Shown here piece after piece: positions 27,759-29,073 of a stretch of DNA of 64,000 nt (its first letter is position 1; the number at the start of each line of letters is the position of its first letter). Made by a program: the position numbers and the translations under genes. The stretch is taken from assembly GCA_022402565.1 (NCBI GenBank), contig JAKRSC010000024.1, positions 356,042 to 420,041 on the forward strand. The letters run 5' to 3'. Source of the stretch: Hydrotalea sp. GTDB taxonomy: Bacteria; Bacteroidota; Bacteroidia; Chitinophagales; Chitinophagaceae. The notes under the pieces were generated by a model. It did no database searches. It saw only the letters and a list, made by a program, of their open reading frames with translations, and was not told the DNA's origin.

Positions 27759-27785
27759 TCAATTTTTGTTTACCCAACTTAAAAT

Positions 27786-28019
27786 TTAAAAAATTCTTTG
27801 TACCACTCTGTTGCATCCATCATACACCACCGCCACATATGATTCAGATGTTGTTAGCATGGTAATTATGTTCATTCCATTTGTGCCAGATTGTTCTATG
27901 ATTGGATTACCCTAAGAATCAATCACCCGAATGAATACCCTATTGTTTTCAGCCTCTTAAATTTCTACTTGTAAGTCGCCTTCAGTTCTACCAGTTTGAC
28001 TAAATTCTTTAACTTCCAG
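27786..28019 (-). pseudogene. Degraded C-terminal coding remnant
   Basis: One minus-strand frame reads continuously like protein but has two in-frame stops. It gives LEVKEFSQTGRTEGDLQVEI, stop, EAENNRVFIRVIDS, stop, GNPIIEQSGTNGMNIITM and then SESYVAVVYDGCNRVVQRIF before a final TAA at 27788-27786. The tail resembles a type IX secretion sorting domain (hydrophobic strand, DS-GN turn, strand, Y-V-x-V-x-D-G, basic end), but this is a resemblance only. The coding-like stretch begins exactly where the outer 119-bp repeat starts (28017), so its 5' part was probably cut off or displaced there. Together with the repeats it fills the 450 bp between the MFS gene and the first GIY-YIG gene. Confidence 0.55.
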
Positions 28020-28090
28020 CATGCCGACAATCGCCAAAGGCGGTTCGTCGGCACCCGCGATCCACAATATCCTCCCAACTTCAAAATAAA

Positions 28091-28113
28091 AATGCCCCAA
28101 CTTTTGGGGCATT
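28091..28113 (-). terminator. Duplicate of the tRNA-Asp terminator
   Basis: AATGCCCCAA and TTGGGGCATT form a perfect 10-bp stem with a 3-base loop, the same as at 28973-28995. Here it follows only a fragment of tRNA-Asp. Confidence 0.75.
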
Positions 28114-28117
28114 CTTG

Positions 28118-28135
28118 CGGACCGGACGGGACTCG
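28118..28135 (-). other. tRNA-Asp 3'-end fragment
   Basis: Eighteen bases identical to 29000-29017. In tRNA terms it covers part of the T-loop, the 3' T-stem strand, the 3' acceptor strand and the discriminator base. The 5' remainder of the tRNA is absent. Such a fragment is what an integration or duplication event at the tRNA 3' end leaves. Confidence 0.88.
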
Positions 28136-28188
28136 CATGCTGACGCACCGGTCAGCATGCCGACAATCGCCAAAGGCGGTTCGTCGGC
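28135..28188. repeat. Double-palindrome block A inside a split T-arm
   Basis: Hairpin 1 (28135-28160) pairs GCATGCTGAC with GTCAGCATGC across GCACCG. Hairpin 2 (28159-28188) pairs GCCGAC with GTCGGC and, inside it, CGCC with GGCG around AAA. The block is flanked by ACGGGACTCG on the left and ACCCGCG (28189-28195) on the right, which are the two T-arm halves of tRNA-Asp, where only one base separates them. Confidence 0.92.
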
Positions 28189-28206
28189 ACCCGCGCTTTT
28201 CTTAAT

Positions 28207-28455
28207 TTATTTATACTTTTCTATAAATAGCTTGATCCTATTTCTAGATAAATTCTTCAATTTTCTTTCTAAAATTATTGCCTCTGATCTTGAATACTTT
28301 GCTGTTTTCCACAACAACAACCATGGTCGAAACGGTGCTGTTGAATTTTCAGAGCCTGCATTATGCCTCGCCAATCTTTCAGTAATATTTCTAGTTTGAC
28401 CAATATAATAACGATTACTCCTTTCAGAATACAATATATAAACCCAATACTCCAT
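28207..28455 (-). CDS. GIY-YIG nuclease-like protein, copy A
   Basis: An 82-residue stand-alone GIY-YIG domain, the UvrC/Slx1-type single-metal nuclease fold. The motif pair reads VYI (Y6) and YYIG (Y16-Y17 to G19); a conserved basic stretch ERLARHN holds R27 or R30, and E63 in ILERKLK is the expected metal ligand, so the catalytic set looks intact. There is no separate DNA-binding domain; the Lys/Arg-rich C-terminus could contact nucleic acid. It is identical to copy B. It sits between palindrome blocks in a tandem unit downstream of tRNA-Asp. Family function for such small proteins is not settled; a role in moving or maintaining this unit is inferred from context. Confidence 0.88.
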   Translation of the reverse strand: MEYWVYILYSERSNRYYIGQTRNITERLARHNAGSENSTAPFRPWLLLWKTAKYSRSEAIILERKLKNLSRNRIKLFIEKYK

Positions 28456-28507
28456 AACTATAACACCTAACTAATAAAATCTTTCTAGAATTTTTCAAAC
28501 GGGACTC

Positions 28508-28561
28508 GAATGCTGACGCACCGGTCAGCATGCCGACAATCGCCAAAGGCGGTTCGTCGGC
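28508..28561. repeat. Double-palindrome block B inside a split T-arm
   Basis: Same block as at 28135-28188 except A for C near the left end, which shortens hairpin 1 to an 8-bp perfect core. Flanked by ACGGGACTCG (28499-28508) and ACCCGCG (28562-28568). Confidence 0.92.
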
Positions 28562-28579
28562 ACCCGCGCTTTTCTTAAT

Positions 28580-28828
28580 TTATTTATACTTTTCTATAAA
28601 TAGCTTGATCCTATTTCTAGATAAATTCTTCAATTTTCTTTCTAAAATTATTGCCTCTGATCTTGAATACTTTGCTGTTTTCCACAACAACAACCATGGT
28701 CGAAACGGTGCTGTTGAATTTTCAGAGCCTGCATTATGCCTCGCCAATCTTTCAGTAATATTTCTAGTTTGACCAATATAATAACGATTACTCCTTTCAG
28801 AATACAATATATAAACCCAATACTCCAT
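28580..28828 (-). CDS. GIY-YIG nuclease-like protein, copy B
   Basis: Encodes the same 82-residue protein as the gene at 28207-28455, with identical nucleotides, so either the duplication is recent or the copies are kept alike by gene conversion. It is the copy nearer the tRNA-Asp gene and lies in the same orientation as it, beyond the tRNA terminator. No good -7 element is visible upstream; the leader begins within the T-arm-like GAGTCCCG sequence. Confidence 0.88.
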   Translation of the reverse strand: MEYWVYILYSERSNRYYIGQTRNITERLARHNAGSENSTAPFRPWLLLWKTAKYSRSEAIILERKLKNLSRNRIKLFIEKYK

Positions 28829-28873
28829 AACTATAACACCTAACTAATAAAATCTTTCTAGAATTTTTCAAAC

Positions 28874-28941
28874 GGGACTCGCATGCTAACGCATCGGTCA
28901 GCATGCCGACAATCGCCAAAGGCGGTTCCTCGGCACCCGCG
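28874..28941. repeat. Partial third unit with double-palindrome block C
   Basis: Begins GGGACTCGCATGC exactly 373 bp after unit B and carries the palindromes with base changes (GCTAACGCATC for GCTGACGCACC, and CCTCGGC for CGTCGGC). It ends at ACCCGCG (28935-28941) and then departs into the spacer and terminator of tRNA-Asp instead of a GIY-YIG gene. It has therefore diverged more than A and B from each other. Confidence 0.9.
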
Positions 28942-29017
28942 ATTCACAATATCCTCCCAACTTCAAAATAAGAATGCCCCAACTTTTGGGGCATTCTTGC
29001 GGACCGGACGGGACTCG
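28899..29017. repeat. Outer direct repeat, right copy (119 bp)
   Basis: Partner of 28017-28135. Its right end lies inside the intact tRNA-Asp gene, at the T-loop. Confidence 0.92.
28973..28995 (-). terminator. Terminator of tRNA-Asp
   Basis: AATGCCCCAA and TTGGGGCATT form a perfect 10-bp stem starting 5 bases past the tRNA 3' end. The following CTTATTTT is a weak T-tract. Confidence 0.8.
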
Positions 29018-29073
29018 AACCCGCGACCTCCGCCGTGACAGGGCGGCATTCTAACCAACTGAACTACCGATCC
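29000..29073 (-). tRNA. tRNA-Asp(GTC)
   Basis: The minus strand folds into a full cloverleaf. The acceptor strands GGATCGG and CCGGTCC pair with one G-T wobble; the D-arm contains AGTTCAGTTGGTTAGA. The anticodon loop is CTGTCAC with anticodon GTC, and the T-arm is GCGGGTTCGAGTCCCGT. Discriminator G73 is the aspartate identity base; CCA is not encoded. The last 18 bases are duplicated at 28118-28135, and T-arm halves recur at every palindrome block. Confidence 0.97.

Follow-up and report, generated by a model that had tools for sequence, protein, structure and literature searches.

Several described systems share features with the locus examined here, an array beside a tRNA-Asp gene in a stretch of Hydrotalea sp. 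DNA of 64,000 nt, the whole of which is called the window below. REPtrons, which encode a RAYT, likewise have a single small enzyme gene between hairpins (blocks A–C in the window, inverted REPs in a sister class described below) and dispersed hairpin-only copies, but they use an HUH tyrosine transposase and GTAG REPs, whereas here the gene is for a GIY-YIG nuclease and the tags are CGTC or a tRNA arm. The CGTC REPs, which include dRS3 of Neisseria and RPE-4 and RPE-6 of Rickettsia, were said to "apparently lack a dedicated transposase", transposase genes having been searched for (Di Nocera et al. 2013, PMC3733652). No associated enzyme is given in that paper; the same repeats bracket the GIY-YIG sister class, and the palindromes in the window have another layout, inside tRNA arms. 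In a survey of the GIY-YIG superfamily (PMC1564403), standalone bacterial domains were grouped as repair-like Slx1, with a predicted role in repair and mostly vertical inheritance, and an unexplained recent insertion of one standalone domain into an HsdR gene was recorded. The window protein resembles the Slx1/UPF0213 standalone nucleases in sequence, fold, minimal single domain and catalytic residues, but its genes are multi-copy, hairpin-flanked and, on comparative evidence, mobile. As in the tRNA islands of tyrosine integrases, the tRNA is restored and a displaced fragment lies at the far end (nt 57–75 here, and also in relatives), but the unit is only about 370 bp long, has no integrase, also occurs in 5′-side layouts, and carries a palindrome in place of an arm in the fragment. 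GIY-YIG homing endonucleases of the I-TevI type share the domain and the occupied and empty alleles; here there is no intron, no DNA-binding extension, the ends are hairpins and the targets are many.

The window genome comprises 2.98 Mb in 35 contigs, and the element (28017–29073) has malQ-like, MFS, accA, dapA and cmk genes as neighbours. On the minus strand, starting at tRNA-Asp(GTC), the parts are arranged as tRNA, terminator, block A, ORF 1, block B, ORF 2, block C, the tRNA-Asp 3′ end (nt 57–75) again, the terminator again and a partial block, as follows.

28999..29073 (−), tRNA-Asp(GTC), the intact target gene (ARAGORN; Rfam tRNA, 68 bits)
28970..28998 (−), intrinsic-terminator-like hairpin behind tRNA-Asp (inverted repeat)
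28872..28941 (−), block A, tRNA-Asp T-arm split by two hairpins, slightly diverged (hairpin 2, 28883–28904; hairpin 1, 28905–28934)
28580..28828 (−), GIY-YIG ORF copy 1, 82 aa, Slx1/UPF0213-like single domain (ORF list, domain search, structure model, fold matches)
28499..28568 (−), block B, split T-arm (hairpin 2, 28510–28531; hairpin 1, 28532–28561)
28207..28455 (−), GIY-YIG ORF copy 2, protein identical to copy 1 (ORF list, repeat search)
28137..28188 (−), block C hairpins (hairpin 2, 28137–28158; hairpin 1, 28159–28188)
28117..28135 (−), duplicated tRNA-Asp 3′ end (tRNA nt 57–75), 19/19 identical
28088..28116 (−), second copy of the tRNA terminator (inverted repeat)
28017..28058 (−), trailing partial block: end of hairpin 2, hairpin 1 (28023–28052) and T-stem 5′ half

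Every block is a tRNA-Asp T-arm with two hairpins placed inside the T-loop, and on the tRNA strand reads GCGGGT, hairpin 1 (GCCGACG...TGTCGGC), hairpin 2 (ATGCTGACC...GCGTCAGCAT) and (T)CGAGTCCCGT; the last block additionally holds the tRNA-Asp 3′ end and the second terminator. There are three complete blocks and a partial fourth with hairpin 1 only, which is inferred, from the sequence alone, to be the remnant of a unit whose ORF has been lost. The array contains a direct repeat of 300 nt (100 % identity, period 373), and an outer repeat of 119 nt (28017/28899) is 97 % identical. When the 2.98 Mb genome was searched allowing up to 3 mismatches, hairpin 1 was found four times and hairpin 2 three times, every match at the window locus, and reversed-pattern controls gave 0 matches. 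Hence, the pattern is not due to chance, and there has been no recent spread of the T-loop type in this genome. Between the MFS gene and the element region (27760–27956), no listed ORF of 50 aa is present on either strand, and this stretch may possibly be decayed sequence.

An earlier, sequence-only reading of the locus had reported two identical GIY-YIG genes beside tRNA-Asp, three palindrome blocks, an outer 119-bp direct repeat and the absence of a RAYT. All four held: the genes are 82-aa ORFs matching PF01541, the blocks are refined to three complete and a partial fourth, each a split T-arm, the outer repeat is confirmed at 97 % identity, and GIY-YIG is the only ORF of the element, with no HUH tyrosine transposase among its neighbours. 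The further claim of a minimal element unlike integrase-borne islands or group I introns is supported, as the locus contains neither an integrase or transposase nor a group I intron. A group I or group II intron was rejected since tRNA alone scored above the gathering score in an Rfam scan at the element, and an integrase-borne island since no tyrosine integrase gene lies next to it.

The window protein matches PF01541 (E 2.3e-16) and includes little beyond the GIY-YIG domain, with no DNA-binding extension. The structures nearest by sequence are UPF0213 proteins (1zg2, E 9e-12) and then Slx1, and comparison of a structure model (pLDDT 96.9) placed Slx1/HIGLE and UPF0213 on top (Slx1 Z about 8), with I-TevI and UvrC lower. 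Among 44 sequences, Y17, G19, R27 and H31 are invariant and Y6 and E63 nearly so; in the clade of T-loop elements to which the window belongs, all catalytic residues are invariant. The pooled dN/dS of tandem ORF copies is 0.175 and the ORF is therefore under purifying selection. Hence by domain, residues and fold the protein belongs to the Slx1/UPF0213-like family; that it is a structure-specific nuclease is inferred from the likeness to the Slx1 fold. There were also weak matches to models for group I intron endonucleases and phage homing endonucleases. A phage origin was rejected, as no match to the protein was found in 50,697 phage records, and a defence system was rejected because there were merely weak partial matches to the GIY-YIG stretch of PDC-S14/UzuA.

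Searches of the window genome revealed five small GIY-YIG genes, two of them in the window, together with a 608-aa frame, which we take to be UvrC, and one longer protein. Of the remaining three, one (L004) lies directly behind tRNA-Ala and terminates in a tRNA-Ala piece with the anticodon arm swapped for a palindrome, and two ORF-less tRNA-Ala pieces of 80 nt are found upstream of it. The second (L003) lies amid tRNA-Asn-like pieces bearing TCCCG...CGGGA palindromes. The third (L005, 1170–2430; G000:C17 near 107321) has no tRNA; the gene lies within an array of GGTGCCTGAGGCTCTCGAAGGCC-type palindromes and its protein is sister to the class bracketed by REPs on the protein tree.

Homologues were present in 115 of 197 genomes of the family, often several per genome and often in tandem at 300–400 nt. 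The family set comprised 92 loci, top-ranked matches plus 60 from further down the hit list; the sequence-only reading had proposed counting how often homologues in relatives neighbour tRNA genes. A tRNA detected by ARAGORN lies within 400 nt at 77/92 loci, on the ORF strand in 77/77, with the ORF downstream of the tRNA in 55 and upstream in 22. The same rule holds more widely, with 21/26 loci linked in an order sample (five of which duplicate family loci) and 25/28 in a phylum-wide sample, all on the same strand. Chance linkage, from tRNA numbers and genome size, would be expected at about 1 %, and as a control any tRNA was found at only 4/110 loci of the REP class. In the phylum sample, homologues occur in 68/140 genera, and the target tRNAs include Asp, Ala, Leu, Pro, Met, Arg, Val, Lys, Phe, Asn, Ser, His and Gln. 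Two events named beforehand as refuting the element, palindromes widespread without the gene or a tRNA, and a fixed single-copy GIY-YIG gene in relatives, did not materialize: the matches in the window genome are all at the locus, and the gene is multi-copy, tandem and beside many tRNAs, with empty sites existing.

Arrays of five near-identical GIY-YIG genes were also seen in other Bacteroidota (G856:C1:120132-122171, 450-nt spacing; G911:C1:2945591-2947087, 315-nt spacing). Many contigs stop at or near elements (L003, L046, L052, L062, L064, L089 and others); draft assemblies therefore probably break there and copies are undercounted.

Loci of the downstream layout open with the intact tRNA and close with a 3′ piece; those of the upstream layout open with a 5′ piece and close with the intact tRNA. 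The duplicated piece holds the palindrome at a structural position, replacing one arm or lying inside it. The anticodon arm is replaced exactly (palindrome between tRNA positions 27 and 45) in Ala, Pro, Arg, Leu(TAA), Lys and others. Other positions are 38 and 51 in Asp, 36 and 47 in Met, 22 and 23 in Arg(TCT), which is a pure insertion, and 12 and 20 in the D-loop; the window type has its palindrome in the T-loop (55 and 55). Most downstream remnants, lacking the 5′ half, are unable to form a tRNA, and some loci have duplicated terminators. At two loci (L030 and L079), ORF-less tandem pieces carry palindromes resembling those of the resident ORF-bearing copy. When stems were paired by hand, the hairpins were found to vary with compensation, position 3 of hairpin 1 being C-G, T-A, A-T or G-T and position 5 of hairpin 2 being T-A, C-G or A-T.

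The protein clades and the target tRNAs also match. On a protein tree of 108 domains, the tRNA isotype (78 labelled loci) required 21 changes, compared with a mean of 53.8 and a minimum of 48 in 1000 shuffles, though the alignment has few columns and the deep forks are therefore unsure. The "Ile" isotype of L073 was rejected as a damaged tRNA-Val that had been miscalled, and the count is thus conservative. Where the palindromes lie in arms specific to a tRNA, the clades are largely restricted to one isotype (Met, Asp, Ala, Arg(TCT) and Leu(TAA)). The T-loop clade of the window is the sole multi-isotype clade, sitting at Asp, Leu(GAG), Leu(CAA), Pro, Lys, Val and Ser; the T-loop is common to all tRNAs. 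This clade–target match is the pattern expected if the nuclease reads the tRNA gene around the break, which is an inference.

ARAGORN reports palindrome-bearing pieces as odd tRNAs, such as Arg(gcg), Stop(tta), Gln(ttg) and a second Pro (L025 1740–1823, L229 1265–1340, L232 1265–1341 and L241 1893–1967), and such pseudo-tRNAs may possibly inflate tRNA counts in the annotation of Bacteroidota.

The tRNA-Asp beside accA is syntenic and is occupied by a T-loop element in the window genome and in a congener (G067). In a second congener (G148, locus L101), an Asp-clade element is followed by a truncated ORF of the T-loop type, an arrangement that we take as the trace of one insertion after another at the same tRNA. 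In several other genera, tRNA-Asp is followed only by a plain terminator, without an element. As the flanks in these genera cannot be aligned, the exact insertion product at the window tRNA-Asp could not be read at base level. Where the ORF lies downstream of the tRNA, the median distance from the tRNA 3′ end to the first start codon is 34 nt (n=50), so that a promoter would hardly fit ahead of the ORF. In the upstream layout, a TAnnTTTG box is found upstream of the first tRNA piece in 8 loci (the piece having been found in 13/16) and between the ORF and the tRNA in only 1/16. TAnnTTTG is the −7 motif of Bacteroidota. It is likely, though inferred from the sequence alone, that the ORF is transcribed from the tRNA promoter.

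A wider search, limited to one genome per species and using as query a manually entered consensus of the domain in its proteobacterial form, recovered 80 loci from about 20 phyla. The ORFs of this REP class, which forms a single clade on the protein tree, are flanked by an inverted pair of hairpins, GTCATTCCCGC-loop-GCGGGAATCCAG ahead and the reverse behind, that fit the CGTC REP layout (CGTC tag, AT-initial stem of 8–9 bp and CCA tail). A strict CGTC REP (GTC-stem-CC) lies within 200 nt at 65/80 loci and an inverted pair at 32/80, and the density of strict REPs is 4.28/kb near the loci vs 0.136/kb beyond 500 nt, a 32-fold enrichment. In an independent gammaproteobacterial set, the figures are 21/30 and 13/30, with densities of 3.83 vs 0.074/kb. 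REP-only copies are dispersed. Among 185 gammaproteobacterial genomes, 17 have both REP and GIY-YIG gene, 14 the REP only, 22 the gene only and 132 neither (p = 4e-6; 1.1e-5 without the seed genome; shared ancestry uncorrected), and hence 14/31 REP-positive genomes, about half, have no close GIY-YIG homologue. The gene lies beside such repeats in species named in the CGTC REP paper (PMC3733652), among them Azospirillum lipoferum, Neisseria, Sinorhizobium meliloti and Novosphingobium aromaticivorans. The hairpins of the window itself do not meet the CGTC REP layout, as the outer GTC (before the stem) and CCA (after the stem) tags are missing, and the link to these REPs therefore rests on the protein family and the hairpin-ORF-hairpin plan. 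That plan, with a tRNA arm standing for one hairpin, is common to the REP units and the tRNA loci.

In Planktothrix agardhii p1 (L307, 1492–1776), a REP-class gene lies amid GTCATTCTGAG repeats, with an MmeI-type restriction gene on one side and DISARM drmA on the other. One Neisseria gonorrhoeae record of 2.17 Mb (L303, NZ_CP119142.1) is labelled as a plasmid and is evidently a chromosome.

The boundaries of the REP units could be read directly. For two loci about 30 kb apart in one alphaproteobacterial genome (L170 and L198), homology begins precisely at the left-hand REP's GTC and stops precisely at the right-hand REP's GAC, and the flanks outside these tags are unrelated. In seven Sphingobium plasmids, the interval from fnrL to a response regulator holds GTC-hairpin-ORF-hairpin-GAC, and in four the ORF is missing there; the two of these four that were read (L309 and L310) have a solo hairpin, GTC-ACCCCGGG-tcaag-CCCGGGGT-GAC, at the same place, which could also be a deletion product of recombination between the two palindromes. 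A base-exact empty site was also sought in the sufB–sufC gap of Azospirillum, where the alignment was too poor to place the ends.

We consider it likely that these loci are minimal autonomous mobile elements whose sole protein is an Slx1/UPF0213-type nuclease, with its action at the hairpins being inferred. The window array would be a tandem pair of an element with a unit of about 370 bp, one nuclease gene plus a hairpin block. The seat of the element would be a stem-loop, namely the T-arm loop in the window branch, the anticodon, D or variable region in sister branches, and, in the branch found across other phyla, two CGTC-type REPs in inverted orientation. The nuclease would cut such a hairpin at its base or loop (the arm and palindrome being extruded or single-stranded), and the cut arm would then receive, through repair or replication, a copy of the cassette with its flanking hairpins or of the hairpin alone. 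After insertion, an intact tRNA would remain on one side, so that the host tRNA survives, and the duplicated piece with its replaced or split arm would lie on the other; tandem copies may arise by re-insertion or unequal crossing-over, and the nearly promoterless ORF would be read from the tRNA promoter. Slx1, the nearest structural relative among solved enzymes, is a cutter of branched DNA according to structure entry titles, and by analogy action of the nuclease on stem-loops is the most likely mechanism. Replacement exactly at an arm would be the expected trace of cuts at the base of a tRNA-gene arm and palindrome.

Mobility is well supported, though all of the evidence is comparative and neither cleavage nor movement has been observed. 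The cleavage chemistry is inferred, as is the proposal that the nuclease, and not host repair alone, drives movement; the tight match between palindromes and tRNAs could possibly stem in part from host recombination together with selection for intact tRNAs. The proposal of the sequence-only reading that the GIY-YIG protein recognises the arm or palindrome and drives copying also remains an inference without activity data, supported by clades that track the target tRNA, intact catalytic residues, a dN/dS of 0.175 and the Slx1-like fold. A bolder reading, to which we lean by a narrow margin, is that small Slx1/UPF0213-type GIY-YIG proteins are new hairpin-directed transposition enzymes that mobilise CGTC REPs (dRS3, RPE-4/-6 and relatives) in many phyla, one Bacteroidota branch having adopted tRNA stem-loops, replacing tRNA arms with its own palindromes while leaving the host tRNA alive.

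The main rival is a free-standing homing endonuclease gene that cuts element-free tRNA genes and is copied by homologous repair from an incoming occupied allele, the palindromes being scars, or shields of the remnant against re-cutting, that the enzyme does not recognise. In its favour are the GIY-YIG domain, the clade–target specificity, the occupied and empty alleles at one tRNA and the weak matches to group I intron and phage homing endonuclease models. However, the reconstituted tRNA retains an uninterrupted arm, the 82-aa protein has no DNA-binding extension, and homing between alleles does not explain the dispersed REP-only copies or the REP-bounded sister units. As the latter lie in unrelated flanks, homing covers spread from allele to allele but not these units, and we regard it as unlikely.

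Much less plausible is a passive structure in which host slippage and unequal crossing-over in recombination-prone tRNA genes merely copied the gene and palindromes along with parts of the tRNA; the tandem arrays with direct repeats and the duplicated terminators at some loci would fit, but homologues in 68/140 genera at many tRNA species with 100 % strand agreement, arm-exact palindromes and an ORF under purifying selection speak against it. An RNA-level system, in which tRNAs are the substrate of the nuclease and the pieces with palindromes act as RNA decoys or antitoxins, could draw on the tRNA linkage, the conserved structure with covarying hairpins and the placement of the ORF for co-transcription with the tRNA, but is very improbable because most remnants cannot form a tRNA, the fold is nearest to branched-DNA nucleases, and the sister class, with the same fold family and hairpins, has no tRNA.

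In the open-licence literature searched, which excluded subscription papers and preprints, no paper was found to connect REPs or tRNA arms with GIY-YIG genes, and within those limits the hairpin-directed element is probably new in kind. It would be an apparently unknown minimal mobile element in which a GIY-YIG nuclease is the sole protein and tRNA-gene stem-loops are the targets. It provides a candidate enzyme for the CGTC REPs, the mobilisation of which was left open in 2013, making the question testable with one small gene. It recasts a widespread family whose usual annotation is GIY-YIG nuclease, UPF0213 or excinuclease subunit C and whose presumed role is in repair, and in Bacteroidota genomes would explain many odd pseudo-tRNAs, tandem GIY-YIG genes and breaks in assemblies.
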